Of a stretch of 64,000 nucleotides of DNA, positions 24,501 through 38,138 are shown piece after piece. How positions within the stretch are numbered: position 1 is the stretch's first letter; each line of letters begins with the position of its first letter. The position numbers were made by a program, and so were the translations under genes. Source of the DNA: Muribaculaceae bacterium (lineage in GTDB: Bacteria > Bacteroidota > Bacteroidia > Bacteroidales > Muribaculaceae); NCBI GenBank assembly GCA_017651515.1, contig JAGCCU010000047.1:62001-126000 (forward strand), written 5' to 3'. The notes below the pieces were generated by a model. It had not been told where the DNA came from and searched no databases. It worked only from the letters and a program-made list of their open reading frames with translations.

Positions 24501-24564
24501 CCTGAACCGTGACAAAGCACAGCGCAAGGGCAAGGATAGCAATTGAATATTTTTTTAGTATCAT
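21538..24564 (-). CDS. Large secreted N-acetylmuramoyl-L-alanine amidase with golvesin-like and Fn3-like domains
   Basis: A 1008-residue protein with a signal peptide (MILKKYSIAILALALCFVTV). The Amidase_3 zinc fold is split: His152 (ALWPSHGWYFE) and Glu175, then an inserted golvesin-like domain at about 210-370 (VDNDGG..., VTADAIRVGGGK), then His480 (CLHTDAGTTPN) and the catalytic Glu566 (LLMELLSH). A fibronectin-III-like part and a long C-terminal domain (about 720-1008) follow. Bacteroidota homologs are sometimes mislabelled xanthan lyase. It likely cuts stem peptides from glycan in the periplasm and heads the peptidoglycan-salvage transcript. Confidence 0.88.
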   Translation of the reverse strand: MILKKYSIAILALALCFVTVQAQEFTASQVDAVTRVVEASKPALMEIGTLKVLSVTTQEDDVIVDLSENYGDVPFTRASIDQLKKDIGLALGTPYKNNDIVLKIAGNDIEQYFTTYDSSYRRSHAPFISELDPNRHYKKALDGNIVALWPSHGWYFEPYLNRWEWQRARMFQTVEDMYTHSYIIPFLIPMLENAGAYVWDARERDTHNFGVVVDNDGGEAQKGYAEHNGKKKWESGKTEGFAFARATYKDFENPFSEGTYRQVEGVKEKDKKKLSTASWDIDMPEAGTYALYISYKSLPNSVNDALYTVNSLDGSKQYKVDQTMGGGVWVYLGSFTLAKGHNKDVVVLSNYSEMKNGVVTADAIRVGGGKGNIVRRVALPTEENKRLAAEQENEKYLGKEGIDYKYVGSGDHPWFHLGSRYFLQWAGFPHEVYSTSNGINDYVDDYRSRGAWVNWLAGGSDVLPGKPGLKIPVDVSFCLHTDAGTTPNDDIIGTLLIYCTRSNGKDFGKYENGTPREISRQYANLVSTEVVNDIRRKYEPNWTRRGMWDKSYYEARVPEVPALLMELLSHQNYADMKYGLDPMFRFDVSRSIYKGMLKFIAQRDHRDYEVQPLPVNSFSIAKASMPGSFLLTWKPTHDDLCDRAEAKKYIVCERVENGGFVEIAVTPDPRYVVNITDNKIHSYRIIAMNDGGRSFPSETLSLGIAPGSKETVMVVNGFTRISGPDWFDGDSIAGFYDSKDHGVPYMEQINYLGSQHEFRRHLDWRDDDAPGFGACRSNHETEVIAGNTFDYTKVHGEALMAAGYSFVSTSLAAVENNPGELSGFATVDLILGKQKEVKVGRGAVPSRYRTFTPALRDALKEFTQAGGNVFVSGAYVGTDIWDKSNASDAEISFAKNVLGYQWVDRCATLRGEVYTVPTQFKQFTDGDKIKFCNELNSKLYAVESPDAIKASDDLGATLMRYSENNIPAAIASNRYGYRTVVMGFPFEVITSDGERNALMRQIMDFFAK

Positions 24565-24778: not shown

Positions 24779-26599
24779 TCAGAAGTCTAGTTCCCACAAA
24801 GTGCCTGTTGAAGTATTGCTTGAATTATTCTTATTAGCATTCTGCTTTTCAGGCTCTTTTGCTTTTTGTTTCGGCTCGGATTGAGAGGTCTGAGGCTGCT
24901 GTTGCACTGAATGATTCTGAACATTAGTAGCAACCTTTTGTTGTTGCTGTGCAGAAGATTGAACAACCTGCCCAGAGTGAGATGTAGAAACAGGCGTAGA
25001 TTCACGATTCACAACATCAATGGAGGTTACATGTGAGGTACTGCCATAATTATTACCCATCACAGCTGCCCTACGATTCTTGATATCATCGGTATAAGTA
25101 TTATAAGGATTTTCATTCAAGAAAACATCATAGGCAGCCACAGTGCCTGCCGTCACAGCCTTGTCATACTTGATTTTCAACATTTTGCGTTGGACTTGGT
25201 CGCAGTACTGAGAATTTGGGTAGTCATTAAGATACTTTACACATTTTTCCAGGTCGTCACCGATTTCATCGTATGCAACTTCATATAACTTGTACCAAAC
25301 TTCCTGCGCATGGGGCGAATTGGGATAATTCTTAAGGAAATCACGACATGATTCAGACGTTGGCTGCAACTCTTGATAAGCATACTCTGAAACTTTAGCT
25401 CGTACTTCACTGGCTAATGGAGACAGTGGATAGTTCTTAAGATATTCACGACACCCAGCTGCAGTGGCAGGCATCTGCTCATAAGCCATTTGGAACAGAC
25501 GCTGCTCGACAAAGTTGAAATGCCCCTCATCTACACCACGGAATTTATTCAAGTATGTGAGATAATCATCAACAGAACCCGAAGCTGCAACCTTGGAATA
25601 GACAAACTTTTCCTGCTCACTTCTAGCTTCATTACGTATCGGACTATTATACAGAGTCATCAAAACACGGTCGTAGGCCTCTTCGGTGCCTTCCCATCGG
25701 GCATAATTGAGCAACTCGTTCTCAATGTTTTTCTTGATCATGTCCACCGAAAGCCTAATGTCACCGCTGAGCAAAAGCGAATTGGCATCATTCAGCAATG
25801 TATCACGACGATAAACTTGCTTGACATACTGATATCCCCTGAAAGGATCACGCGGCACGTTCAAAGCATCACGTTCACGATACTTGGCAGGATAACTCAT
25901 CATTAAAGCCTCTCCAAGTTCCATCAAAGGATAGCAGTTAAAAATGGTGGCATTGTCCCAGTTAAGTACATCGCTGTCGATTCCCTGATCCTGATTTGAC
26001 TTTAGGATTATTTTATTACGGGCCTTCTGAGCTTCGGCATAATCACCGGCCGAGAGCCACTTGAAATAATCGTGTAAAAGCTTAGAAATCTTGTCGTGGG
26101 GATTTTTATAGCAAATGTGCGGCACACGCCTTGCAAACCTGCTAATTATGGCAACGTCACCATCGGCCAACTTGCGAGCCATATTGGTCTTCACATTATA
26201 AACCAAGTCGTAAGATTTAGTTGGTGACACGTTACACTCGATGAACAGCTCGTACTTGCCAGCACCCATGTTGACGTTGGTTGCATCGGCAAAAATAATA
26301 TAATAGTCGGCACGGGCACTGTCGTCAACAAAAATCACAGCACGCTTGTCAGGATCAAAATAAACCGCACAGTCATAATACTCAACGATTTTGCATTTTG
26401 CTGCCACAAAATCGTTGGTAATCGCACACGGCTTAAAAGGAATAACATTTCCCGACCGGTCATTATTCATCATCTGAACAGCCGAAGAATTCACAGTGAG
26501 CCATTCCCGTGTATCATATGTCAGCTTTGACTCTGCGAAAGAGCTGAGCGTCATCAACAGACAGATAATGGCAAGAATACTTTTAAAAGAAATCTTCAT
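24779..26599 (-). CDS. Secreted repeat protein with a Gln/Lys-rich low-complexity end
   Basis: I do not recognise the family. The 606-residue product has a signal peptide (MKISFKSILAIICLLMTLSS) and a folded N-terminal part of about 320 residues. Four tandem 37-residue helical repeats follow (YLKNYPLSPLASEVRAK, FLKNYPNSPHAQEVWYK, YLNDYPNSQYCDQVQRK and a looser fourth), similar to TPR-like solenoids. The last 90 residues are Gln, Ser, Asn and Lys-rich. It ends the gene run that begins with the LytTR and FHA genes but has its own promoter behind a strong terminator, so it can be expressed apart. A cell-surface or periplasmic scaffold role is inferred. Confidence 0.8.
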   Translation of the reverse strand: MKISFKSILAIICLLMTLSSFAESKLTYDTREWLTVNSSAVQMMNNDRSGNVIPFKPCAITNDFVAAKCKIVEYYDCAVYFDPDKRAVIFVDDSARADYYIIFADATNVNMGAGKYELFIECNVSPTKSYDLVYNVKTNMARKLADGDVAIISRFARRVPHICYKNPHDKISKLLHDYFKWLSAGDYAEAQKARNKIILKSNQDQGIDSDVLNWDNATIFNCYPLMELGEALMMSYPAKYRERDALNVPRDPFRGYQYVKQVYRRDTLLNDANSLLLSGDIRLSVDMIKKNIENELLNYARWEGTEEAYDRVLMTLYNSPIRNEARSEQEKFVYSKVAASGSVDDYLTYLNKFRGVDEGHFNFVEQRLFQMAYEQMPATAAGCREYLKNYPLSPLASEVRAKVSEYAYQELQPTSESCRDFLKNYPNSPHAQEVWYKLYEVAYDEIGDDLEKCVKYLNDYPNSQYCDQVQRKMLKIKYDKAVTAGTVAAYDVFLNENPYNTYTDDIKNRRAAVMGNNYGSTSHVTSIDVVNRESTPVSTSHSGQVVQSSAQQQQKVATNVQNHSVQQQPQTSQSEPKQKAKEPEKQNANKNNSSNTSTGTLWELDF

Positions 26600-26618
26600 A
26601 GTCTTGATAAAATAGTTA

Positions 26619-26648
26619 CAAAAATACGAAAAGTCAGGAATGTCTCAA
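26619..26648 (-). promoter_or_regulatory. Promoter of the 606-residue secreted protein gene
   Basis: TATTTTTG (minus, 26626-26619) with CTTG (26648-26645) 18 bases upstream. The -33 part lies inside the stem of the preceding terminator. Confidence 0.5.
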
Positions 26649-26684
26649 GTGCTGCTGAAAAAAGACTTGGCAGCACTTGAGACA
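26641..26684 (-). terminator. Strong hairpin terminator, 15-bp perfect stem
   Basis: TGTCTCAAGTGCTGC (minus, 26684-26670) pairs perfectly with GCAGCACTTGAGACA (26655-26641) around a 14-base T-rich loop. It lies 16 bases after the stop of the TPR/beta-barrel gene. The T-rich tract follows a few bases later rather than directly. Confidence 0.75.
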
Positions 26685-26699
26685 AACGTATGAGCTACA

Positions 26700-28088
26700 T
26701 TAGAATGCCACACCGACACCTACAGAGATTCGGTGCTGACCCATAAAGTCCTGAAGGCCCTTCTTCAAGGTGAAGCGATATTGGTAAGTACCACGGATAG
26801 CAAAGTAACTGTACTTGATGGTCAAACCCACAACGGGAGAAATTGCCGGAGCAAAATTAAAATGCTTGTAGTCATCTCCATTAGGATCTAATGTAGTGGA
26901 TTCTACCTGACTGTCCTTGTAATATGGATAATTCTTGTCTAAGTACTTACCATAATAGAATTTGCCGGTGAAACCGGGGCCAAAATGTACCCAAACTGGA
27001 TTCTTGATTTTTATGGTCCAACCAAATGCCATATTAATTTCAGGATATTTAGGATTGGTCGCAGGATCTTCGTAATGGCACTCACCACGAATTGCATCGA
27101 ATACTGCCGGATTGAAATCCAACTGGAAGAAACCGCCAGCCTTATGCATATTGTACTTACCAATCTGAATGCCGATAGGAACATCCTTACGCCACTCATA
27201 GGTAAGAACGTGACTGTGGTTCTTGCGACTGCGAGCATTGCTCTCAATGCTCTGCAAGCGTGAATTGGCCTGTGACTCATAAGGACACTTACGGCCAATC
27301 ACCTGATTGTAGATTTCTTTTGCTTTGTCATAATCCCTTTCGTTATAAAGCCACTCGGCACGATTGAACAGGACATCACACTCACTCTTGAAATTGGCTA
27401 TACAACGGCTGTTTTGCTCAAGAGCATAAGAGTCGTAGGCATTAAGACCGATCATCTTTTCGAAATATTCAGATGCGGTGCGATAGTCAAGCAATTTCAG
27501 AGCATTGTCAGCCTGAATGCGATATAGCATCAGAGAGTCAACGATGGCTAAGTTGTAATTGTTTTCTGTTTCATTGGCTTCGGCACATGAACCTGCAAGA
27601 GTAAGTTGCCGACGTGCTTCAGCATAGTTCATATTCTTTATTTCCTGCATGGCCTTGTTATGATGTTCATTATAACAGCCAGTTCCCACGGTGGCATTCG
27701 GGTCACTTACGCTAAGTATGCACCACTGCCCAGACTTCAGGAAAGACAAATTGTAATAAACATCATCATAAGATGGAGAAGCAATTGTCAAAATACGAGT
27801 GCTGTATTCACGAACCGAAGGGTCAACGTCTAGATACATAGTATAGGTGGTAGTAGCCCCATCGTCCTCAGAAACGAGTCGCATGTCTTCAATTTTGTCG
27901 CACTGTGTTTCAAATTCCAAGGGAATTGAAGTCGGACACTTAATATCAACGCGGGCACGATACTCTCCCGGCTGATTCATATACGCACTTCCCAAAGTGT
28001 TAGGTACTTCTGTTACTTGCAGAATTTTTTGAGCCTGTGTTCCCGCTACTGTAGTCGCTAGCAGAACAAAAAGTAATAATTTTTTCAT
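26700..28088 (-). CDS. Outer-membrane protein with TPR region and C-terminal beta-barrel
   Basis: The 462-residue product has a signal peptide (MKKLLLFVLLATTVAGTQAQ). Residues about 25-130 form a beta-rich domain. A helical TPR-like stretch follows at about 140-285 (AEARRQLTLAG, DYRTASEYFEKMIGLN, ERDYDKAKEIYNQVIG). The C-terminal 170 residues have alternating hydrophobic strands and end in HRISVGVGVAF, the aromatic-terminal pattern of outer-membrane barrels. A periplasmic TPR joined to a barrel suggests an outer-membrane anchor or sensor for the signalling cluster (inference). The 339-residue gene lies 32 bases upstream, so they are co-transcribed. Confidence 0.8.
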   Translation of the reverse strand: MKKLLLFVLLATTVAGTQAQKILQVTEVPNTLGSAYMNQPGEYRARVDIKCPTSIPLEFETQCDKIEDMRLVSEDDGATTTYTMYLDVDPSVREYSTRILTIASPSYDDVYYNLSFLKSGQWCILSVSDPNATVGTGCYNEHHNKAMQEIKNMNYAEARRQLTLAGSCAEANETENNYNLAIVDSLMLYRIQADNALKLLDYRTASEYFEKMIGLNAYDSYALEQNSRCIANFKSECDVLFNRAEWLYNERDYDKAKEIYNQVIGRKCPYESQANSRLQSIESNARSRKNHSHVLTYEWRKDVPIGIQIGKYNMHKAGGFFQLDFNPAVFDAIRGECHYEDPATNPKYPEINMAFGWTIKIKNPVWVHFGPGFTGKFYYGKYLDKNYPYYKDSQVESTTLDPNGDDYKHFNFAPAISPVVGLTIKYSYFAIRGTYQYRFTLKKGLQDFMGQHRISVGVGVAF

Positions 28089-28120
28089 ACTTATTTAATT
28101 TATTGTTAATTAGTTAATAA

Positions 28121-29140
28121 TTATCTAGCAAGTCTGAACATTCCCAAATGATAAACCTGATCAGGCGTAGTTACAATATTTCCATATTCATCAAGATACG
28201 GTTGCCAAGTACGAACCTGAACCAAAGGATTATCACTATTCGTAAAGTCAATTATTAAAAATAAGTAACCGATGTCGCTATACCCTTTCATCTTGGCAGT
28301 GGGAGCTGTATGCCAATATTGCTTGAGAGTAACGCCATAAATATTGTCATATTTCCTCGACTCTACGACTTCTATGTCCTCAAATTGCACATTGACATAA
28401 CTGTTTCTCTTGAAAATAGTGCGAAGCTTATTTATATACTCGGTCTTGTTCTGGCGAGTATATACCACTTTGTTAGTTAACGTAGTAAGAGTCCCATCAT
28501 TAGTACTAGGGACTTCTTTAATTACACGCCCTGTAATTATAAGAGCATTATCGCCATAAACACTGGAAATATATGGTAAGTCTCTACGGTTATATGCTGT
28601 ACGGAAATTCTCAATAAATTCGACAACCTTTTGTCGGCGTGCATAATCTAGAGCCGAGCGGTTTTCTGCCATAATCTGGTCATACCTGTGCATTTCGATT
28701 GCAATAGCAACATTTGATATTTGCCCATCTCGGGTAAAGTCTATAGTAAGCTCCTGACGTGAATTATTCTCGTCTGCATTGAGGATATCAACAGGAATAC
28801 CGCGAACCTGATAACCACTGGAAGTATTAAGGCAACGAGAGCGGATTTTCAATGGCGGACAACTCATCGGGCTGTTTTTCCACATCATCTTTACGTCTTC
28901 AATAGCCTGTTGAGTGAACTGAGATTCATTCAATCTCACTTTCTTCTGCTGCCTCTCGGCTGCATCCGACATCGCATTGATGAAAGAGTTTACATTGTTT
29001 TCAATAGTTGTCTTCAACCCGCCTTCATCCAATCCTTCATAAATTGAAAATTGATTTTGGGCAGATAACGTTGTTCCACCAAAGATTAAGGCCAGGACCA
29101 CCAATAATCGTTTCAACAAGTCAGTATAAGTAATCATCAT
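28121..29140 (-). CDS. Secreted protein with an NTF2-like domain
   Basis: The family is not named with certainty. The 339-residue product has a signal peptide after a short leader (MMITYTDLLKRLLVVLALIF..., Ala-Gln cut site). The middle and C-terminal part resemble the NTF2/SnoaL-like fold (VVEFIENFRTAYNRRDLPYI, SVYGDNALIITG, TLKQYWHTAP, LFLIIDFTNSDNPLVQVRTW). Such domains bind small ligands or act as dimer modules; no catalytic residue stands out. It starts eight bases after the 226-residue gene stop and leads into the TPR/barrel gene, so all three are probably one secreted module. Confidence 0.75.
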   Translation of the reverse strand: MMITYTDLLKRLLVVLALIFGGTTLSAQNQFSIYEGLDEGGLKTTIENNVNSFINAMSDAAERQQKKVRLNESQFTQQAIEDVKMMWKNSPMSCPPLKIRSRCLNTSSGYQVRGIPVDILNADENNSRQELTIDFTRDGQISNVAIAIEMHRYDQIMAENRSALDYARRQKVVEFIENFRTAYNRRDLPYISSVYGDNALIITGRVIKEVPSTNDGTLTTLTNKVVYTRQNKTEYINKLRTIFKRNSYVNVQFEDIEVVESRKYDNIYGVTLKQYWHTAPTAKMKGYSDIGYLFLIIDFTNSDNPLVQVRTWQPYLDEYGNIVTTPDQVYHLGMFRLAR

Positions 29141-29148
29141 AATGGTAT

Positions 29149-29829
29149 TTATTTTCTTTTGAACGTGTTAATAACTGGGCTGTCGAGTTCATCTTCAACT
29201 CCGAATAAATTGCTAATATTCTCTTGGGGAATATTTGAGTAAAGTTCTACTTCCATTTCCCCCACTCCAGTTGTGATTGTAGCTATTGGAGAAGAAACCT
29301 GCAACATGTGAATTATATTCTTCTTTACGTCATGATAGACAGCAACTCCTTCAACAACAGATTGAGTCACAGAAGTAATAGAACAATATACCTTCATGCC
29401 AGGCTCTAGTTTCGTACGCAACTCATCATATGGCATATACAATGTTGCATTCTGTCCACCATACTGGTGATGATGTACCGTGACATCACGGTTTCCACCA
29501 GCAATGACACCAAGCAAGAGATTATTCATCGTTTCCATGGGATAACGTGAATCATTAATTGGTAAAGCTTTATTCCTACCCGTAATGTAATACACGTCAT
29601 TTCTAAGGCTTTTTACTTGAAAAAATGACCCTTTAACCATGAAGACAGACCCACGGGATCTTCCATTACGTTCGAGTGTCGCTGTTTTAGGAATATTCAA
29701 TTCTTCAGCCGACATATCACTGCTCAATAACACAAACAGCGCGCTATCGGCCTGTGCTTTATCAATTTTAGGAGCAGATAAAGCCGATATGGAAACCAGC
29801 AGCGATATAATTATAAACCATTTCTTCAT
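29149..29829 (-). CDS. Secreted hypothetical protein (226 aa)
   Basis: I do not recognise this protein. It has a signal peptide (MKKWFIIISLLVSISALSA) and a mostly beta-rich body with a His-rich patch HHHQYGG near residue 120 that could bind metal. It begins the run of secreted proteins after the Sel1 gene. The 115-base gap upstream shows no clear promoter, so it is likely read through from the kinase-Sel1 transcript. Part of that gap is an open extension of the Sel1 frame. Confidence 0.7.
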   Translation of the reverse strand: MKKWFIIISLLVSISALSAPKIDKAQADSALFVLLSSDMSAEELNIPKTATLERNGRSRGSVFMVKGSFFQVKSLRNDVYYITGRNKALPINDSRYPMETMNNLLLGVIAGGNRDVTVHHHQYGGQNATLYMPYDELRTKLEPGMKVYCSITSVTQSVVEGVAVYHDVKKNIIHMLQVSSPIATITTGVGEMEVELYSNIPQENISNLFGVEDELDSPVINTFKRK

Positions 29830-29944
29830 CTTAATATCATATTTATGAATTATATAATCACTTCATTTGATAGCTAGAATTATCAATTTGAGGGTGAGAC
29901 TCATTTGGCGTGTCTATTATCACACCTTTAGATGCTTGTTCACG

Positions 29945-31483
29945 CTAACGAGCAGCTTCAGTAGGATTACGGTCTATCACTTCACCCCTCTCGTACATAG
30001 TGGCAAGTTCATATTGTGACGGTCTGTAACCAGCTACAGAAGCAGCTGTAAACAATTGTTGTGCTCGCTGATAATTGCGTGGTACTCCTCGAGCATTCAT
30101 ATAACACAGAGCAAGTGCATGTTGTGCTTCTGGATAATGCTGCATTGCCGACAAACGATACCATCTTGCTGCCATGCTATAGACTCGTTTTGTTCCACGA
30201 CCATTAAAGTAGGCCTGACCCAGTAAAAACTGAGCCTCAGCATTGCCTGCCTGAGCAGCAAGGCGATATAGGCCTATTGCTCTTTCAGGCTGATCGTAAT
30301 CATCAAGAAGCTTCGCGATAGGCAGCCAAGGTAAAGAATGAGGTTTATCACGGAAAACCGAACCTTCAACATTAAGGCTCTCTTGAGCAGTAGTATCACC
30401 CTTTTCAGCCGCCAGTTTCAACCATTTTTCGGCGAGTTCGGGATTCTCATCAGTACCACGGCCATAGCGATAACAAGCCGAGAGCAATCGCATGGCGGTA
30501 GGATTAACATAACCTTCTTCATCTTCCACTGCACGTGTGAGCCACTCAAAAGCCTGGTCATAATCTCGAGGAACACCTTGTCCACGATAAAAACATTCAC
30601 CGATGCGAGCAGCACCGCCCAAGTTGCCATTATTCAAAGCACGACCAAACCATTTAACTGCCTCGGAATAATTCTGTTTGACAACGTCATTTCCATAATA
30701 ATAGAAACAACCTAAACGATACTGAGCGTCAGCCTCACCGGCATCGGCTGCCTTAGTGTACATTTCTATAGCTTTTGGGTAGCTACGTTCTAATGCATCT
30801 CCATGTTCGTAGCACCAACCCAAATTGAAAAATGCTTCAACATATCCTTGCTGTGCAGCTTGTTGCCATAGCGTTACGGCCTTATTATGATCTTGAGGCA
30901 TTGCAACTCCTTGATAATTAAGACAGCCCAAAGCATAAAGCGCTTCAGCAAGTCCAGACTGCGCGGCCTTTTCTACTAATTCTTTTGCTTTATCTCCGTT
31001 CTTTTCAATAGCCAATTGATAATATGCCTCATAGAGTGAAGCCAGAGGATTGCCATTATTAATGGCTGCAAGAAGCATCTTTCTGGAATTTTCAAGATTC
31101 TTCTTAACACCCAACCCATGACGCACACATAAAGCCATGTTCAGCATTGCGTATGGATCACCCATTTTGGCTGCTTGCTGGTAAGACTTCAACGCCTCAA
31201 CAGTATCAGCCACCGCACCATATCCGTGCATTAGACACCATCCAATATCATTATATGCTGTCGCCATGCCCTTGCCTGCCGCTTTCTTATAGTATTCCAG
31301 AGCTTTTGTATAGCTTGTTTTCACTCCATTTCCGTATTGATAGCAATACCCCAAAGATCTTAAAGCCTTACTATCGCCACTAGCTGCATTGTTCTCCAAT
31401 TCAGCTGAATAACGCACCTGAGCACTTACTATTAACGCTGATATCGAAATCAACAATAGAAATATGTATTTAGTTTTATTCAT
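29945..31483 (-). CDS. Secreted Sel1-repeat protein, apparently ended early by a TAG codon
   Basis: The 512-residue product has a signal peptide (MNKTKYIFLLLISISALIVS) and about eleven Sel1 repeats of roughly 36 residues (LGYCYQYGNGVKTSYTKALE, IGECFYRGQGVPRDYDQAFE and similar). Sel1 solenoids bind partner proteins and often sit beside kinase or envelope-stress systems. The last repeat stops at NPTEAAR followed by TAG, where the repeat pattern expects a tryptophan or tyrosine. The same frame stays open for 28 more codons, to a TGA at 29860-29858. A TGG to TAG change is the simple reading. It starts 11 bases after the kinase gene. Confidence 0.9.
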   Translation of the reverse strand: MNKTKYIFLLLISISALIVSAQVRYSAELENNAASGDSKALRSLGYCYQYGNGVKTSYTKALEYYKKAAGKGMATAYNDIGWCLMHGYGAVADTVEALKSYQQAAKMGDPYAMLNMALCVRHGLGVKKNLENSRKMLLAAINNGNPLASLYEAYYQLAIEKNGDKAKELVEKAAQSGLAEALYALGCLNYQGVAMPQDHNKAVTLWQQAAQQGYVEAFFNLGWCYEHGDALERSYPKAIEMYTKAADAGEADAQYRLGCFYYYGNDVVKQNYSEAVKWFGRALNNGNLGGAARIGECFYRGQGVPRDYDQAFEWLTRAVEDEEGYVNPTAMRLLSACYRYGRGTDENPELAEKWLKLAAEKGDTTAQESLNVEGSVFRDKPHSLPWLPIAKLLDDYDQPERAIGLYRLAAQAGNAEAQFLLGQAYFNGRGTKRVYSMAARWYRLSAMQHYPEAQHALALCYMNARGVPRNYQRAQQLFTAASVAGYRPSQYELATMYERGEVIDRNPTEAAR

Positions 31484-31494
31484 ATCTTAATGTA

Positions 31495-33510
31495 TTACCA
31501 ATCCCATTTAGCATTAAAAGCCTCGATACGCCTTTGGACATCAGGGCTTGCACTGGCCTTCAATGAATTCAAGCGCCGCATATCTGCCGCCGAAGGCATT
31601 GTGCCTGATGAGTTTAATTTTGACAATAATGCCATAGCCTGTTTATCGGCTTGACTCTGAGAAGTCACAGCTGGAGTAGGTTTATTATCTACTTTCGGAG
31701 TTTCTTTCTTTACCTGAGTGGCTTGTTGCACAGGCTTAGTATCAGACTTGGAGACTTCAGATTGTGTCGGTTTTATATCCTCTTTGTTTGATGTTGGAAC
31801 AGTTGTGTTAATAACATCTTTCTTTAAATCTTCTTTTTCCTGTTTTTCAGTATTTTCCTGACTAGGAATTACTACAGGTTTCTCTTTGTCCAACTCCTCG
31901 GTTTCAATTTCTATTACCTTGTTTGTATCATTATCAACAACAATAGAATCTGACACTACATTTGTTGTACGGCTACAACTATTAAACAATTTAGGCATGT
32001 ACACGGCCGCAGCACCAATTAATATACCGGCAAATATTATACCGGCTATCATCTTGTAATTAGACTTAACTTGATGAGATACTTCACCCACCACCTGAGT
32101 AGCACCGTCGGCAACATTGTTGATAGACTTAACAATTGCCGACTGCGGCTTGAACAACGAATTAGCCACGCAGTAACAAGTACCATTAGCCTCGAAACAC
32201 ATGGCCTCTATCATTCCCCCTTTTCCTCGAGCTAAAGCTGGTAACGACTGCAAGTCAGTCAAACCAGTTATAGTTGCTACAGCAGTATTGAACTGATCTT
32301 TATAAGTTTCATCAATTAGACCAAGAGTCACGGTATCATCATCATTACGATTTGAAACACCGTTCACAAATTGTTCTAATACAATGATTGACTGTTTTTT
32401 ATATGATGATACTTTGCCTTTTTCAGGCTGCGTGGCATGCAAATCGGCAGTTATATGAGTTTCCGATGCACGGCGTGCCTCATATCGAATGTAGCCGCCA
32501 CAATCGTCCAATATTCGAGTAATGCGGTAATTATCAAATGGCCCCTCCAGAACATACCCCACCGGCAAAGTATAACTAGCTGCCAATTCACGGAGAAAAT
32601 CAGCTGCCGACGGAGTTCTAAACTGCCTTAATGGCTGCATAGCGTGGACGATGGCATTACGCGTACGGTCACTTACCGTTGGGGGCAAAGCTGATCTAAT
32701 ATAATTTTCATTTACATCGGCAGAATTGATAGGGTCTTGACCAGTAAGCAAATAGAAAGTAGTAGCGGCCAACGAATAAACATCGATGCGTGGATCAAAC
32801 GATGTTATTGGTTGAGCCTGTTCCATAGGCGAATAACCAGGAGTCAGTCCACTGGAGTTGGACAAGGTTGTTCGTGCACCCTTATCGTCAAAATGCAGAG
32901 AAATACCAAAGTCGATAAGCATAGGCACGTCGGGTTGACTGTCGCCACCGCTTCGCATGACAATATTCTCAGGCTTAATGTCCAAATGGAGTACTTTATG
33001 ATTATGAATAAACTCAACAGCATCAACAATAGGCCTAATGAAAGACAACGCCTGCACTTCACTCATAACACCATTGTCCTTTACTCGTGAGCGCAAACTT
33101 CCACCATTGAGAAATTCCATCACAAAATAAGATGTACCATTAGCATCAAAGCACTCATTCACAGGCACAATATGATGATTTGTTATGGCTGCTTCATTCC
33201 CAAGTTTGCGATTGGCAGAACATATATTTACCAGCCTGCCAGCCTCAGCCTTGAAATCCTGCTGACATCTTATGACCTCGGCACGAGAGACCTCGGCATA
33301 AGTCATAGTACAGCCATCATCTTCATTTCGCATGCAATGAGACTTCAAGAAGAACTCTTTCACAGCAAATTGAGTCTTCACGGGAATGTTCTGGTTCATT
33401 ATTATTGACGAAACCAGATAAGTGAAGCCAAAGCCGCCTTGACCAAGTACACTTTCAATAACATACTTGTTTTTCCCGTTCAAAACAGTGCCTTTAGCAA
33501 GTTCGTACAT
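31495..33510 (-). CDS. Transmembrane serine/threonine protein kinase
   Basis: A 671-residue Hanks-type kinase. The glycine loop is LGQGGFGFTYLV (22-33), the ATP lysine is Lys51 (FAVKEFF) and the alphaC glutamate is probably Glu89. The catalytic loop is HLDIKPEN (175-182; Asp177), and DFG starts at Asp200. All key residues are intact. A linker with a second globular part (about 315-480) leads to one membrane segment at about 485-504 (KMIAGIIFAGILIGAAAVYM). A Lys/Thr/Pro-rich tail and a short helical end follow on the far side. It sits between a PP2C phosphatase and the Sel1 gene, so kinase and phosphatase likely act on the same targets, probably the FHA and acidic proteins. Confidence 0.95.
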   Translation of the reverse strand: MYELAKGTVLNGKNKYVIESVLGQGGFGFTYLVSSIIMNQNIPVKTQFAVKEFFLKSHCMRNEDDGCTMTYAEVSRAEVIRCQQDFKAEAGRLVNICSANRKLGNEAAITNHHIVPVNECFDANGTSYFVMEFLNGGSLRSRVKDNGVMSEVQALSFIRPIVDAVEFIHNHKVLHLDIKPENIVMRSGGDSQPDVPMLIDFGISLHFDDKGARTTLSNSSGLTPGYSPMEQAQPITSFDPRIDVYSLAATTFYLLTGQDPINSADVNENYIRSALPPTVSDRTRNAIVHAMQPLRQFRTPSAADFLRELAASYTLPVGYVLEGPFDNYRITRILDDCGGYIRYEARRASETHITADLHATQPEKGKVSSYKKQSIIVLEQFVNGVSNRNDDDTVTLGLIDETYKDQFNTAVATITGLTDLQSLPALARGKGGMIEAMCFEANGTCYCVANSLFKPQSAIVKSINNVADGATQVVGEVSHQVKSNYKMIAGIIFAGILIGAAAVYMPKLFNSCSRTTNVVSDSIVVDNDTNKVIEIETEELDKEKPVVIPSQENTEKQEKEDLKKDVINTTVPTSNKEDIKPTQSEVSKSDTKPVQQATQVKKETPKVDNKPTPAVTSQSQADKQAMALLSKLNSSGTMPSAADMRRLNSLKASASPDVQRRIEAFNAKWDW

Positions 33511-33525
33511 CTTATCTATAATAAA

Positions 33526-34437
33526 TCAGTTAAACAGTCCTTTAAGAAAAGAAATCAAACCATTGGATTTCTTTCTTGCGCGCATTGTGGATGCAATATT
33601 CACAACTCCATCTTCATTGTGATTATAATACGCTGTATTGTTATCATCGAGAGGTAACTGATGATACAATGGCAAACCTTGCTCCACCTTATCTATATGA
33701 ATCAACGTAGCCGTCGAGTTGTCGCTGCTGTCGATACAACGACGTTTTATTTCTTCAATAACAATTCTGTCATCATTGTTACGGCTAAGGATATCAAGAA
33801 GGGCATCATCATCAATGCATTGCAATACCCCATCGGAGCATAAAAAAACATAATCTCCGTCCTGAACATCGGCAGTACGAAGCACGGTAGCCATACATCG
33901 AGTTTGATCGGCATCGGTGGGCGACATATATCGTGTGATAATATGTCTGCGATTGTCTATTGTAGCCTCATCGGGCGTAATCATTCCATTATGAACCATA
34001 GTATTGACCATTGAGTGGTCATCACTACGATATATAATGCCTTCATTAGGCCTAATGTGATACACCCTGCTGTCACCTATATGAGACAAGGTCATACCGC
34101 CATCATGAAAGGCCGCAAGAACAAGTGTCGTAGCCATGTCACGATTTGCTGATACTGCATTAGCATCCAATTCGTTATAAGCAACATCCAATACATGTCT
34201 GAAATCAGCATTAGAAAAATTCTCTTTCCAATCAAATTTAGACAGCAGTGAACCCATGGAATTAGCGACAAGCCTGCTGGCCACTTCACCCTTAGAATGA
34301 CCGCCTACACCATCGCAGACAATAAAAAACCTCTGCGATGCATCAGGCATATCTTTATCAGGGAAACGACTATCTTCTTGATTTTCTCTTTTGCCCTGAA
34401 GAATAAACGAATAAGATTGTCGCAAATGAATAATCAT
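33526..34437 (-). CDS. PP2C-family protein serine/threonine phosphatase
   Basis: A 303-residue phosphatase with the metal-binding aspartates in NQEDSRF, VCDGVGGHSKG, GDSRVYHI, CSDGVLQ and SSDNSTATL. All are intact, so it should be active. The C-terminal 60 residues are a poorly conserved tail ending in a basic, hydrophobic stretch (KKSNGLISFLKGLFN). It is soluble and predicted cytosolic. The gene lies between the zinc-ribbon/FHA gene (12 bases) and the kinase gene (15 bases). It most likely reverses the action of the kinase encoded next to it. Confidence 0.95.
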   Translation of the reverse strand: MIIHLRQSYSFILQGKRENQEDSRFPDKDMPDASQRFFIVCDGVGGHSKGEVASRLVANSMGSLLSKFDWKENFSNADFRHVLDVAYNELDANAVSANRDMATTLVLAAFHDGGMTLSHIGDSRVYHIRPNEGIIYRSDDHSMVNTMVHNGMITPDEATIDNRRHIITRYMSPTDADQTRCMATVLRTADVQDGDYVFLCSDGVLQCIDDDALLDILSRNNDDRIVIEEIKRRCIDSSDNSTATLIHIDKVEQGLPLYHQLPLDDNNTAYYNHNEDGVVNIASTMRARKKSNGLISFLKGLFN

Positions 34438-34449
34438 AATCTCTATTTT

Positions 34450-35376
34450 TCATTTTACGCGAACAAAACGCACTGTGGTTCGTCCAAGCTTAATAGTATC
34501 GCCATAATTCAGATACACAGAATCCCCCACTGCGTACTGTTGCTTGTTGACATATACTGGATTAGCAGCATTAAGAACCTTGAACAAAAAACGATATCCT
34601 GCTCTTGCATCATCAGCTGGCATCACATCAATCATTACCGACTGGCGACTCATAAAGCTATCATTAAATGATATGCTACTGGGCTTTTCATCGTCAATAC
34701 GTCCAATAGTATTCTGCCCGACACGCAATCTTATGGCTTTGCGGTTAATTCCCATAAAACCACCGAAACTAATAGCACCCATTGACTGTTGCCTATCTCT
34801 GCCTCTCAATGCGACAGTTACTTGAGGTTCACTTGCAACTTTAGCTGTTGCCACCTTTATTGATGAGTTGGGATCGTCAACATTAAAAATAATAGGTGAA
34901 CTGCAAGCAACACATGAAATTGTCTTACGCCCTGCCGAACTGGGTTTAAGCACATGCATCTTACCGCAATGCCCACACTTTATTCGCACTGGAATGCCCA
35001 ACACTGCATGTTCATGTATAATGTAGCTGCCATCACTTGTAGGAACAGCCAACCCCAGCAATGATGCATTCTGCACTGCAGCGGGATTCTTCTGAGGCGC
35101 GGGGTTTGGGTTAGGAACCGGATTCAGTCCTGATTTGTTAACCGGAGTAGCGGCAGGCTGACTGATTTCAGCATTTTGTTGCTGAGATTGGATACGCAAT
35201 AATAACGGGGATTTACATTCGCGGCAAGAAATAATGGCATTTCCAGCTCTTAGTACCCGATATGGATTTTCGCAGCCACAGGCTGGACAAGAAAATTTCA
35301 CCTCTTGTCCAGCATGCGCCACGATATTTACTCTAGATAGTTGTCCTAGTTTATTATATGAATTCTGTTCACTCAT
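34450..35376 (-). CDS. Protein with two zinc ribbons and a C-terminal FHA domain
   Basis: A 308-residue soluble protein. Two four-cysteine ribbons are present: Cys30, 33, 51, 54 and Cys134, 137, 155, 158. A Pro/Asn-rich linker separates them. Residues about 215-308 form an FHA domain (LRVGQNTIGRIDDEKPSS, NDSFMSRQSVMIDV, GDTIKLGRTTVRF). FHA domains bind phosphothreonine, so this protein should be a reader of the kinase in the same gene run. Ribbons like these bind nucleic acid or protein. It lies 12 bases from both the acidic protein gene and the phosphatase gene. Confidence 0.88.
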   Translation of the reverse strand: MSEQNSYNKLGQLSRVNIVAHAGQEVKFSCPACGCENPYRVLRAGNAIISCRECKSPLLLRIQSQQQNAEISQPAATPVNKSGLNPVPNPNPAPQKNPAAVQNASLLGLAVPTSDGSYIIHEHAVLGIPVRIKCGHCGKMHVLKPSSAGRKTISCVACSSPIIFNVDDPNSSIKVATAKVASEPQVTVALRGRDRQQSMGAISFGGFMGINRKAIRLRVGQNTIGRIDDEKPSSISFNDSFMSRQSVMIDVMPADDARAGYRFLFKVLNAANPVYVNKQQYAVGDSVYLNYGDTIKLGRTTVRFVRVK

Positions 35377-35388
35377 AAATAAAAATAT

Positions 35389-36582
35389 TTAAGCTAATGA
35401 ACTATCGTCAAATCCAACAAGATCAGTATTTATGTCATCAATGTGTGAAGAAAGATCGTCATTGGCAGCCAACTCTTCATCGATATCAAACTCATCAAGG
35501 TCTTCATCAATCATGACATCTGCCGTTTCAAGCGACTCATCAGACAAGAGCTCGTCATCGTCTGGTGTGTCCATAATGTCATTTTCATCAACAAAGGCCA
35601 CCTCATCACCAGTACCATCTCCTTCAATTCCGGCAATCTCTGCACCAGCGCTTGCGTACATGGGAGTATCAACAAGGGTTTCAGGATTGATTTCATTGAC
35701 GAATGCCTGCATTTCACCAATATTCACCTCAAAATGAATGCCCTCGCTAAACATAGCATATTCATTACCAGAGATATCGGTAAGAGTATCTAAGAAACCA
35801 TCACCATCGCTGTCAACCAACATCATATATTCACCATTATCGTTTGCAAGCAATGTAGCCATATGTACTTGACCGTCACCATTAAGTTCAGTTTGAATCA
35901 TATCTGTTGGTTTCAGACCCATCATTGACATGAAGATTTCTGGGCTAACATTTACTGTATCGGTCAGATCATCACCTACAGTGTTAGTCAATATATTCAT
36001 TGCTGATTGGGAAATGGGGGGAACACCTTCATTGAGTGTCGAAGCATTGCCTGAGTCCACTGTTGAATCATCTGTAGATGGAACAGTTTCTCCAGGATTG
36101 ACATCATCAGCAAGCCACTGAGTATCTACAGGAATACCGTGCTCATCTGTAGCAAACTCGGGGTGAGTTGCAGTTTCTACAGTAGCAGTCTGTTCAACTA
36201 CATCATTATGCACTGGTTCTTGTGAGACAGAATGATGGACCTCACGAGGCTGAGAGGCAGCATGTGAGCCACGAGGTGAAGCAGTAAAGGCCGGTGAACT
36301 AGACGCAGCATCTACTGACACTTCTGACCCTGTTGCTGCCGACTGAGACTCAACCGCTTCTTGCTGAGCCTGTATGTCTTCAGCTGTTACATGAGCGACC
36401 ATTTCCTCCTCTACCACGGTGCTATCTTCATTGTCTCCAAGTATAGATGCAGCAACACCCCCTACTCCAGCAACAGCGGCAGCAACACCTGCTACCTTGG
36501 CAGCTTTGGCCCACTTTGAATTCTTGTTCTCGTCTTGGTTCTTGCTCTCGTTTCCGAACGCTTGTGTTGTTTGAGTATCCAT
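35389..36582 (-). CDS. Acidic Thr/Ser-rich protein with a Ca-binding-like loop
   Basis: I do not recognise this family. The 397-residue product is very acidic, especially residues 330-397, and rich in Thr, Ser, Glu and Asp. A basic N-terminal helix region (WAKAAKVAGVAAAVAGVGGV) is Ala/Gly-rich but weakly hydrophobic. Residues about 258-270 (LVDSDGDGFLDTL) resemble an EF-hand or dockerin calcium loop. No signal peptide is visible. It is the first gene after a full-consensus promoter, followed by the zinc-ribbon/FHA, PP2C and kinase genes. I infer a phosphorylated adaptor or kinase substrate that the FHA proteins bind. Confidence 0.75.
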   Translation of the reverse strand: MDTQTTQAFGNESKNQDENKNSKWAKAAKVAGVAAAVAGVGGVAASILGDNEDSTVVEEEMVAHVTAEDIQAQQEAVESQSAATGSEVSVDAASSSPAFTASPRGSHAASQPREVHHSVSQEPVHNDVVEQTATVETATHPEFATDEHGIPVDTQWLADDVNPGETVPSTDDSTVDSGNASTLNEGVPPISQSAMNILTNTVGDDLTDTVNVSPEIFMSMMGLKPTDMIQTELNGDGQVHMATLLANDNGEYMMLVDSDGDGFLDTLTDISGNEYAMFSEGIHFEVNIGEMQAFVNEINPETLVDTPMYASAGAEIAGIEGDGTGDEVAFVDENDIMDTPDDDELLSDESLETADVMIDEDLDEFDIDEELAANDDLSSHIDDINTDLVGFDDSSLA

Positions 36583-36625
36583 AATTTTAAAAATTTAATA
36601 GTTAGTAATGCTTTTGTTTACGCTG

Positions 36626-36657
36626 CAAATTTAAAGGGGCATTTCAGGGTATGCAAA
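36626..36657 (-). promoter_or_regulatory. Full-consensus promoter of the acidic-FHA-PP2C-kinase-Sel1 transcript
   Basis: TTTG (minus, 36657-36654) is followed after 20 bases by TAAATTTG (36633-36626), about 44 bases before the acidic protein start. This is an excellent Bacteroidota promoter match. Confidence 0.75.
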
Positions 36658-36741
36658 TTTTTACGACCATGTTGTTTGAACCATGCAGGTTTTTTGACGA
36701 AACATTGGAAATAGCTTCTTGAAACTAAAAATCATATAATT

Positions 36742-37374
36742 CTATTGCGCTTTGCAGCGAGGACAATGCATATTCTTAACATCATTAGCTGATAGTATAT
36801 TGTGGCATGATGGATTAGGGCATTGCATGAACAGCGCTTCTTGTTCCTTAATGCTTTTACGTGCGTTAATAGGGTCATATGCAAGACCTGTAATCACCGT
36901 CACAAGGCTAGACAATCTAAGAAAAAGAATTGTGCCTGCTGGATCAGTAAAGAACATAGAGCCTATTAAAGCTAAAGCCGAGAGACCTGTTGTCCCCCAT
37001 TTAATATACTTTGCTTTACGTTCCTGGCGTTTCAGCCTTTCATCGAATTCATTTTTCTTATCTCTAATATAATAGAAATCGTCTAGGAAATTAGATGGTG
37101 AAAGAATGTGCCGAGCATAGAAAGAACAACCTTTAACAGTCTCTCCGCCAAGGACGATAAACGTATCGGGAGAAATCGAGACACGACTAACTCTTACCAA
37201 CTTTCCATCATCACCACGAACATAAGTTCCATTGGGAGAGCCCAAATCCTCTAAAGTCCATTTTTTATCGTCAATGATTATACGCGCGTGCTGGCGGCTG
37301 ACGGCTGTTGCACCTTTTGGTATCACAAAAGGCTCCTCGCATTCACGGCCTAGTATAAATTCTGTCATTGCCAT
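36742..37374 (-). CDS. FHA-domain membrane protein with a C-terminal zinc ribbon
   Basis: The ATG at 37374 gives 210 residues; the first codon of the longer reading is TTG. Residues 1-95 form an FHA domain (MTEFILGRECEE, VSRQHARIIIDDKK, LGSPNGTYVRG), with the usual Arg, Ser-Arg-His and Asn positions. Two hydrophobic segments at about 125-170 (TTGLSALALIGSMFF, ILFLRLSSLVTVITGLAY) suggest membrane insertion. A CPNPSC...CPRC ribbon ends the protein (residues about 185-210). It follows the LytTR gene by 19 bases and may bring phosphothreonine partners to the membrane. Confidence 0.88.
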   Translation of the reverse strand: MAMTEFILGRECEEPFVIPKGATAVSRQHARIIIDDKKWTLEDLGSPNGTYVRGDDGKLVRVSRVSISPDTFIVLGGETVKGCSFYARHILSPSNFLDDFYYIRDKKNEFDERLKRQERKAKYIKWGTTGLSALALIGSMFFTDPAGTILFLRLSSLVTVITGLAYDPINARKSIKEQEALFMQCPNPSCHNILSANDVKNMHCPRCKAQ

Positions 37375-37393
37375 AATCAATAAAATCTATCAT

Positions 37394-37771
37394 TCACTCA
37401 CCGCTGTTATGACGAAATTGTTTTTCTACATGTTCCTTGTAGCCTCTAATAAGCGACTTGGGTATTGACAGTATCAATGGAGAATGCTCTAAGTCGCTCA
37501 ACATCACACTTTGCTTTAAAACGTTAATGCGGCGAAGGTAACACTGATTAAGAATCACACTTCTGCCAAGTCTTATAAATGGGCTTGATACACCCTTCTC
37601 ATAGGATAGGGAGATCATGCGTTCTATTTTCGTAATTCCAGCTGTAATGGTGGTTTTCTGTCCTGTTATGTACACAATAAGAGAATAGTTGCCTCCTGCC
37701 TGAATGTATGCGACTTTATCTAAGTCGATTACAACTAATTCATCTCTTGAATTATAACACAATTGTGACAT
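37394..37771 (-). CDS. Stand-alone LytTR DNA-binding regulator
   Basis: A 125-residue protein with a LytTR domain and no receiver domain: DELVVIDLDKVAYIQAGGNY near residues 10-28, HSP-like KKTTITAG, and FIRLGRSVILNQCYL near 85. Such domains bind direct or inverted repeats upstream of promoters. It is the first gene of the FHA-kinase cluster and likely controls it, perhaps itself. A conserved palindrome (37847-37882) lies just upstream of its -7 box. No membrane anchor or sensor domain is present, so the input signal would have to come from other proteins. Confidence 0.92.
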   Translation of the reverse strand: MSQLCYNSRDELVVIDLDKVAYIQAGGNYSLIVYITGQKTTITAGITKIERMISLSYEKGVSSPFIRLGRSVILNQCYLRRINVLKQSVMLSDLEHSPLILSIPKSLIRGYKEHVEKQFRHNSGE

Positions 37772-37810
37772 AATACCTTATCAAGTTTTAATTAGTTACG
37801 CTTCAACTTG

Positions 37811-37818
37811 CAAATTTA
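37811..37818 (-). promoter_or_regulatory. -7 box of the LytTR gene promoter
   Basis: TAAATTTG (minus, 37818-37811) is a full TAnnTTTG match about 40 bases before the ATG. No good TTTG box lies at the usual distance upstream, so an activator may be needed. Confidence 0.5.
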
Positions 37819-37846
37819 CTTAATATTTTTCACACTACTGCTATAA

Positions 37847-37882
37847 ACCATTAATTTTCTTTCATAGCACCAATTTAATGGT
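37847..37882. promoter_or_regulatory. Palindrome ACCATTAA-N20-TTAATGGT upstream of the LytTR gene
   Basis: ACCATTAA (37847-37854) and TTAATGGT (37875-37882) are perfect inverted halves, 28 bases centre to centre. The pair is placed at about -36 to -71 of the LytTR promoter. A binding site for the LytTR protein or another regulator is inferred. Confidence 0.4.
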
Positions 37883-38092
37883 CTAAAATGACGCCGCAAA
37901 CATCGAGTAGCAAGCACTAAATAATTGATTTGCCAAAATACACACTGTTGCACATCATTTGAAGAATCATGGATTCTGAAAACGAATCTGACTGCATTGT
38001 TACCATTACATAACTGAACCTTGTACACATCATTCTGCTTTTAGTTTTAATCGGAAAAACATTTACAACAGGAAAAAAAATTCAAAAAACGC
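37883..38092. other. Divergent gap between the LytTR gene and tRNA-Gln
   Basis: About 210 bases between the palindrome and the tRNA promoter show no convincing gene, hairpin or repeat. A short minus-strand frame there is Cys/Arg-rich and has no start signal. Confidence 0.4.
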
Positions 38093-38122
38093 TTGCAGGT
38101 TCAGAAAAAAGCAGTAATTTTG
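38093..38122 (+). promoter_or_regulatory. Promoter of tRNA-Gln
   Basis: TTGC (38093-38096) and TAATTTTG (38115-38122) are separated by 18 bases. The predicted start at about 38129 is just before the tRNA. Confidence 0.6.
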
Positions 38123-38138
38123 CAGCGCATTTGGAAAT

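Follow-up and report, generated by a model that had tools for sequence, protein, structure and literature searches.

A run of genes on the minus strand of a 64,000-nucleotide stretch from a Muribaculaceae genome (contig JAGCCU010000047.1, positions 62,001 to 126,000; hereafter the window) encodes a LytTR protein, a membrane FHA protein (FHATM), an acidic protein predicted to be a membrane adaptor, a zinc-ribbon FHA protein (FHAzn), a PP2C phosphatase and a Ser/Thr kinase, and this core recurs in Bacteroidales and Cytophagales. It is somewhat probable that these genes specify a threonine-phosphorylation pathway operating across the inner membrane, through TssL-Fha-like docking without a secretion machine, and the acidic protein is probably its phosphothreonine-tagged anchor. 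The computations covered the linkage of the genes, their domains and predicted topology, the enrichment of the motif and the pairing of motif types with FHA types. An earlier interpretation of the window (the original prediction) had described a self-contained system at 24779..37771 and had proposed an envelope-sensing or surface-building pathway in which the acidic protein is a phosphorylated adaptor. This interpretation is partly supported, and the underlying observation was largely correct, although it probably included one gene that does not belong.

Recurrence and Distribution of the Cluster

The cluster was recovered independently from three seeds, namely g8 (the FHAzn gene), PP2C and FHATM. 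With g8, matches were found in 27 of 119 family genomes and 16 of 30 genera, and the 29 regions outside the window genome, which comprise every other place with a g8 match, contained the adaptor (26 regions), PP2C (25), a metacaspase (20), FHATM (19), the kinase (18), LytTR (17) and a Sel1-repeat protein (14). The PP2C-seeded loci, which are the best 80 of at least 560 confirmed ones and overlap with family genomes covered before (judged by length and layout, L080 and L056 are one contig; loci are numbered with the prefix L), contained FHAzn at 57, the adaptor and the kinase at 55 each, FHATM at 48, LytTR and the metacaspase at 38 each, and Sel1 at 15. Many of them are truncated at the end of a contig (5 kb are present on both sides of an annotated PP2C in 45 of the 80), and at L129 the PP2C used as seed escaped annotation, being probably lost to an overlapping open reading frame (ORF) call. 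Because the component hidden Markov models were built from the g8-seeded regions, divergent forms were missed. Seventeen loci have neither FHAzn, FHATM nor the adaptor and represent either different PP2C loci or truncated ones.

The original prediction had suggested searching for the same gene order in relatives, where the genes do stay together: the gene directly ahead of PP2C is FHAzn in 54 of the 74 cases having an upstream same-strand neighbor, and the gene directly ahead of FHATM is LytTR in 34 of the 45 cases having an upstream neighbor. Nineteen further loci, picked by hand, came from the FHATM seed (15 near-full-length places in 13 genomes and four partial ones, the remaining matches being mostly FHA-only or partial) and contained FHAzn at 16, PP2C at 15 and the adaptor at 11. 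The linkage of these genes exceeds chance, the shuffles and Fisher tests ignoring shared ancestry.

The distribution of the cluster is scattered, with about one-fifth of the sampled family genomes positive by g8 and a thin representation outside the family. By title, the 80 PP2C-seeded loci come mainly from Bacteroidales metagenome assemblies, and core genes were found among Cytophagales in Runella (L127) and Dyadobacter (L129 and L140). The clusters of Runella sp. MFBS21 (L127) and Dyadobacter soli DSM 25329 (L129), both cultured, are of type A. In a sample of the phylum, the profile of type A adaptors (one of two types, see below) matched three of 296 genomes, in which it adjoined FHATM at four of five places; near-full-length FHATM occurred in these three and in the window genome, and FHATM matches of any length in 48 of 296. 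A sample of the order gave FHATM matches in 50 of 295 genomes, 12 of them near full length. No match to g8 was found in 50,697 phage records or 72,556 plasmid records.

The Acidic Adaptor Family and its Threonine Motif

The protein encoded by g9 (35389..36582, minus strand, as are all genes of the run) contains 86 Asp and Glu versus 8 Lys and Arg in 397 residues, which bears out the acidic label given to it originally. It begins with MDTQTTQAF, continues with a Gly/Ala helix at residues ~27-50 and carries DxDGDxxxD at position 257 in its acidic, predicted outer part. Five members of the family, g9 among them, had no Pfam match over cut-off (two weak matches lay under it), and a search of solved structures with the type A adaptor returned one match, ubiquitin-S27a (E 0.048), taken as chance. 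After dereplication, 95 relatives were retained, 68 of type A and 27 of type B, with median identities in 150 sampled pairs of 27% (type A) and 30% (type B); a profile comparison (probability 96.9) relates the two types to each other through their C-terminal loop region. Most of the relatives share a layout in which a short N-terminal segment rich in Thr leads into a patch of basic residues and then a hydrophobic stretch rich in Gly and Ala, with a long acidic region behind it, and a DxDGDxxxD-like loop is found in 47 of the 88 adaptors of at least 240 residues. Because basic residues precede the helix and acidic ones come after it, the N-terminus is predicted to be cytosolic and the acidic part to be outer.

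FHA domains have been described as strictly phosphothreonine-dependent, with pTxx[I/L/V] and pTxx[E/D] as motifs (PMC8786283). Among type A adaptors, the motif [DEN].T.[FYILVM] was found in 44 of 68 N-terminal segments, compared with 9.1 in shuffled segments (standard deviation 2.6, maximum 19 in 2000), while its Ser version was found in 5 of 68, versus 6.4 in shuffles. Type B segments contain T..[FYILVM] in 21 of 27 cases versus 9.1 in shuffles (standard deviation 2.2, maximum 18), with a hydrophobic residue at +3 in 13 of 24, and 19 of the 27 start with M-x-T, versus 3.3 in shuffles. Other ORFs at the same loci served as a further comparison, from which adaptors shorter than 240 residues (five type A, two type B) were left out: the type A motif is present in 41 of 63 adaptors versus 100 of 1244 other ORFs, and the M[DENSAGT]T start in 17 of 25 type B adaptors versus 42 of 1244. 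One adaptor (L116) has five motif matches within its N-terminal segment. In the FHATM-seeded set, inspection by eye of 80 residues recognized the motif in L219, L221, L222, both L223 copies and L228 and not in L218, L220, L224 and L225, with L226 and L229 not judgeable. The proposal of a phosphorylated adaptor is strengthened by this Thr-specific N-terminal motif, which points to a candidate phosphorylation site.

Three loci (L120, L125 and L135) carry three or four tandem adaptor genes, each with its own Thr-containing N-terminus, a possible docking array.

Predicted Phosphothreonine Readers, Phosphatase and Probable Regulator

The labels given originally to the LytTR, FHA, PP2C, kinase and Sel1 genes each have Pfam support. 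FHATM (g10, 36742..37380) combines an N-terminal FHA domain (E 1.6e-11), a hydrophobic stretch or hairpin and a C-terminal zinc ribbon, and G11, H31, C187, C192, C206 and C209 are invariant in its alignment. FHAzn (g8, 34450..35376) has a C-terminal FHA domain (E 1.5e-5) and four CxxC motifs at 30, 51, 134 and 155, as expected for the double zinc ribbon described earlier, and is predicted to be a soluble phosphothreonine reader. In FHA domains, phosphothreonine is bound by residues of the G-R, S-R-x-H and N-G motifs; these are present in g10 and partial in g8.

The subtype of FHAzn is that of the adaptor in 81 of 82 pairings, including 56 of 57 at loci outside model training, and the FHATM and adaptor subtypes agree in 70 of 72. 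This pairing may reflect either the co-evolution of tag and reader or the inheritance of whole operons.

The PP2C phosphatase (g7, 33526..34437; Pfam PP2C_2, E 6.8e-12) carries the motifs DGxGG, GDSR, DG and DN, whose columns are invariant in 14 aligned sequences. The first gene of the run, g11 (37394..37771), encodes a LytTR DNA-binding protein without receiver domain that scores barely above the Pfam cut-off (22.9 bits against 22.6; E 1e-4) and is, by its position, the probable regulator of the operon. LytTR-type direct repeats with consistent spacing were not found upstream of 53 LytTR genes.

Several observations concern PP2C genes in other settings. At L045, L047 and L086, a DnaK-like gene lies directly 3' of the operon PP2C, suggesting a link or an insertion at a chaperone locus, and similar PP2C genes occur elsewhere without FHA neighbors (L077, L081, L090, L106 and L107). 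Kinase and PP2C also occur together at another locus of the window genome (G000:C78:17000-38000; L035, L147), whose layout is unlike that of the window operon and near which an 812-residue open frame has an FHA match.

Predicted Transmembrane Kinase and Secreted Components

The kinase (g6, 31495..33510; Pfam Pkinase, E 3.7e-28) is of the Hanks type, with Lys51, HxD at 175 and DFG at 200 as catalytic residues, and K51, D177 and D200 are nearly invariant across 70 kinases. One transmembrane segment is predicted at 487-505, followed by an outward tail of ~166 residues, in agreement with the claim that this kinase spans the membrane. Among the 70 of 125 kinases scanned with Pfam, 67 matched Pkinase and 61 have a predicted transmembrane segment behind the catalytic domain, with a tail of 100-300 residues in 50 of the 61; these outward tails fit the envelope sensing suggested originally. 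The domains found in the 70 kinases are diverse, with MORN in seven, Sel1 in six, FGE-sulfatase in five, BACON_2 in three, and Fib_succ_major, FKBP_C, PEGA, OmpA and TonB_C in one each. The variable tails could thus serve as interchangeable sensors of the envelope or of ligands. The Sel1-repeat protein encoded by the following gene (g5, 29945..31483; Pfam Sel1, E 7.6e-85, 10 stretches) has an N-terminal hydrophobic segment and is a possible periplasmic partner of the kinase. Elsewhere in the window genome, two adjacent kinase-like genes were found (G000:C27:29969-31890, L036), one of them barely above the Pfam cut-off.

Three further genes encode predicted secreted proteins. The g4 product (29149..29829) has no assigned fold, and its homologues adjoin g3 and kinases both in and outside hub operons. 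For g3 (28121..29140), the NTF2-like label proposed originally holds at the level of the family, 12 of 20 members of which match the Cds6 C-terminal NTF2-like domain (Cds6_C), but not for the window protein itself, which has no Pfam match. Searches of solved structures with g3 and g4 gave no match at E 0.1. The g2 protein (26700..28088) is TPR-like, with weak TPR matches under cut-off, and its C-terminal region, which ends in F, may form an outer-membrane barrel. The g4-g3-g2 order is also found in L137, L089, L190 and L191, and g4 and g3 adjoin kinases in the hub operons L043, L069, L072 and L075. Sixteen separate g3 loci have a kinase (nine), Sel1 (two), a caspase (one) or none of the set (four) nearby, and among nine genomes matching both g8 and g3 only two, the window genome and G106, have them on one contig. 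The secreted module therefore appears linked to kinases rather than tied to the operon. At L201 and L203-L205, the g3-type domain lies inside proteins of 600-640 residues with no core gene nearby.

A Probably Exported Metacaspase in Related Clusters

The original prediction had missed a metacaspase gene present in the clusters of many relatives, notably at 36 of the 63 PP2C-seeded loci that have a core gene and, in several relatives, between FHATM and the adaptor. Its His-Cys dyad (H97 and C134) is invariant in 20 of 20 aligned sequences, and the one member scanned, from L043, matches Pfam C14 (E 8.1e-22). All 20 aligned metacaspases have an N-terminal hydrophobic segment and are thus probably exported. 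A profile search, run without positive control on an assembly (2.49 Mb) that is 87% complete, found no metacaspase in the window genome, nor did reading the 159-bp gap ahead of g9 by eye, in all three frames of the coding strand, reveal a caspase remnant. Since it is frequent in relatives and missing here by profile, the metacaspase is considered common to such clusters and not needed for their core.

Organization and Ends of the Gene Run

The eleven minus-strand ORFs at 24779-37771 stand in the order described originally, and are transcribed as LytTR (g11), FHATM (g10), adaptor (g9), FHAzn (g8), PP2C (g7), kinase (g6), Sel1 (g5), g4, g3, g2 and g1. From LytTR to Sel1, five of the six intergenic gaps measure 11-15 bp and the sixth, ahead of g9, 159 bp (36583..36741). 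Two TAnnTTTG promoter-like boxes (TAAATTTG), also missed by the original prediction, were found 47 bp ahead of g11, in the upstream region (37772..38138), and 51 bp ahead of g9, in the 159-bp gap; we take them to resemble the Bacteroidota -7 element. These boxes make two transcripts possible, so that g11-g10 and the remaining genes may be transcribed separately.

All eleven genes had been read as one run, which stands for ten of them: the system probably consists of ten genes (26700-37771), and g1 (24779-26599), which encodes a TPR/BamD-like protein, probably lies outside. The gap 3' of g2 (26600-26699) contains a strong hairpin (-28.6 kcal/mol, z -4.46, 15-bp arms), which has no T run directly behind it and is likely the 3' end of the operon; hairpins lie on either side of g1. 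In another genome of the genus (L171), a g1 homologue (760 bits) directly adjoins an amidase gene; the 15.6 kb retrieved there contain no core gene, the rest of that genome not having been searched for the operon. As it rests on the hairpin and this single relative, the exclusion of g1 is likely rather than certain. Of the 20 flank stretches retrieved beside the amidase gene, the remaining 19 did not show g1. Within the genus, rpsP was found in none of the 20 fetched stretches and tRNA-Gln in none of the 16 scanned, so that no empty site could be defined. At 21538-24564, the window encodes a protein of 1008 residues that has golvesin-C and amidase_3-like regions; 58 of 61 genomes from this genus contain it.

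Proposed Pathway and Alternative Explanations

In the proposed pathway, membrane kinases with variable outward tails, perhaps together with periplasmic Sel1 proteins, would respond to envelope conditions or to a ligand at the surface and, as the motif suggests, phosphorylate a Thr in the short cytosolic N-terminus of the adaptor. FHATM and FHAzn would then dock on the adaptor phosphothreonine and form a complex at the membrane, PP2C would reset the phosphorylation, and LytTR, judging by its position, would set cluster expression. The output would lie in the envelope, through the acidic outer part of the adaptor with its Ca-binding-like loop, and through the exported metacaspase of relatives or, in the window genome, the g4-g3-g2 module.

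Several findings weigh against this pathway. The strict motif is missing in 24 of 68 type A segments, and 6 of 27 type B segments do not contain T..hydrophobic and 8 of 27 do not start with M-x-T. In type A, the +3 residue is mixed (acidic in 22, hydrophobic in 17 and other in 24 of 63), and the fit to one FHA class is therefore only loose. The adaptor helix is Gly/Ala-rich and moderate in hydrophobicity, and the g8 FHA domain carries Ser at the position of the usual His. The pairing of subtypes could merely reflect two old operon lineages inherited whole. Finally, L213-L215 run from FHATM to FHAzn with no adaptor recognized, L217 has LytTR-FHATM with neither FHAzn nor PP2C within 20 kb, and kinases and g4/g3 genes are also found away from the operon, which is therefore at most a hub. 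With such separate loci and the profile-negative metacaspase search, the term self-contained was too strong.

The Thr motif might be a kinase docking site or serve another use, the FHA proteins binding kinases or each other, an explanation that we regard as unlikely. FHA proteins can indeed bind autophosphorylated kinases, and the type B motif begins at residue 3, close to the start codon. However, the type A motif is specific for Thr, its Ser control being at chance, an early Thr is not general among the other ORFs of these loci, the pattern is repeated in L116, and motif type tracks FHA type. An anti-phage or programmed-death system, in which the kinase senses infection and the cell is killed by a caspase or by the membrane FHA protein, would fit the metacaspase at 38 of 80 PP2C-seeded loci, the weak SLATT_1 match of g10 (E 0.008, under cut-off) and the patchy presence among family genomes; PADLOC matches comprise kinase models (g6), one model for PP2C and a caspase model for the metacaspase of a relative. 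Yet these matches are at the domain level and none is system-specific (for the kinase, among the 25 of 33 matches listed), LytTR, FHATM, the adaptor, FHAzn, Sel1, g3 and g4 have no PADLOC match at E 0.001, the caspases are probably exported and not detected by profile in the window genome, and g8 is unmatched in the phage and plasmid records. A known defense system was rejected, no specific PADLOC system being matched, and the broader anti-phage explanation seems quite improbable.

The co-occurrence of a Hanks kinase, PP2C and FHA, the same trio as in the type VI secretion module, could also indicate type VI regulation (PpkA, PppA, Fha) with secretion genes located elsewhere, and both g10 and g8 weakly match the TagH model, under cut-off. 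The original prediction had seen no tss genes here. The sheath VipB (PF05943) was matched in none of the 27 carriers, by a single Pfam model that may miss divergent Bacteroidales sheaths and that matched only E. coli among 14 control genomes. Likewise, no type VI gene was recognized by eye among the recurrent unannotated neighbors of the cluster in relatives, which were not scanned with type VI models. Type VI regulation was rejected on the VipB result and is considered extremely improbable. A general housekeeping system for growth or wall control, like PknB/Stp, is very improbable as well: the best NCBIfam match of PP2C is Stp1 (139.7 bits, under the cut-off of 230) and the kinase is a membrane protein with an outward tail, but g8 is unmatched in 92 of 119 family genomes and PASTA is absent among the 25 of 34 Pfam families listed for the 70 kinases.

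Beyond the favored threonine-phosphorylation pathway, we tentatively suggest, as a possibility short of probable, that Bacteroidota have a transmembrane phosphothreonine pathway of their own, in which a dedicated adaptor family would present a tag to FHA readers in two co-evolved dialects, many interchangeable sensor kinases would converge on a single hub, and execution would fall to a metacaspase in the periplasm or to a secreted module. No description of the cluster was recognized among the open-licence PubMed Central papers listed, a scope outside which most subscription papers and all bioRxiv preprints fall. New here are the adaptor family and its Thr motif with two forms, the metacaspase in the clusters of relatives and the variable outward kinase tails. 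In our view, there are few worked models of Ser/Thr signaling in gut and rumen Bacteroidota, and a cluster that brings together enzyme, eraser, readers and a likely substrate whose site is predicted lends itself unusually well to testing. It could provide a function for one group of exported metacaspases and for a family of membrane proteins that has no name in Pfam, its paired motif and FHA types provide a natural experiment in reader specificity, and it offers a possible route for Bacteroidota signals across the cell envelope.

Comparison With Known Systems

Prokaryotic metacaspases have been described in operons, and many of them carry a possible signal peptide in the form of an N-terminal helix (PMC3501461). 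The operon setting and the N-terminal segment are shared with the metacaspases analyzed here; the main text of that study does not contain the term FHA, and no such operon was recognized in it. The TerY-P triad consists of vWA, kinase and PP2C proteins. Kinase-PP2C-vWA genes have been linked to GAP1-N2 systems (PMC7159879), and in both, as in the window cluster, a kinase, PP2C and zinc ribbons occur together within a single run. They contain vWA, in place of which FHA proteins are found here, and a TerY-P system was rejected, as none of the eleven window genes had a vWA match at E 0.1.

In the actinobacterial proteins GarA and OdhI, neighboring N-terminal Thr residues are phosphorylated by Hanks kinases and bound by the FHA domain (PMC2784874). 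The idea of an N-terminal Thr switch is thus shared. In GarA/OdhI, tag and FHA domain reside in one protein that targets metabolic enzymes, whereas here they are split between proteins, the motif being in the adaptor, a predicted membrane protein, and the FHA domains in g8 and g10.

The type VI pathway of PpkA, PppA, Fha and TssL shares a kinase, a phosphatase, an FHA protein and an inner-membrane Thr-tagged partner, the latter being predicted here. In Agrobacterium, phosphorylated TssL, whose site is Thr14, recruits Fha (PMC5995506). The cluster differs from this pathway in that VipB is not matched, the membrane partner belongs to an acidic family without Pfam match over cut-off, and LytTR, Sel1 and metacaspase genes are added to the shared set.

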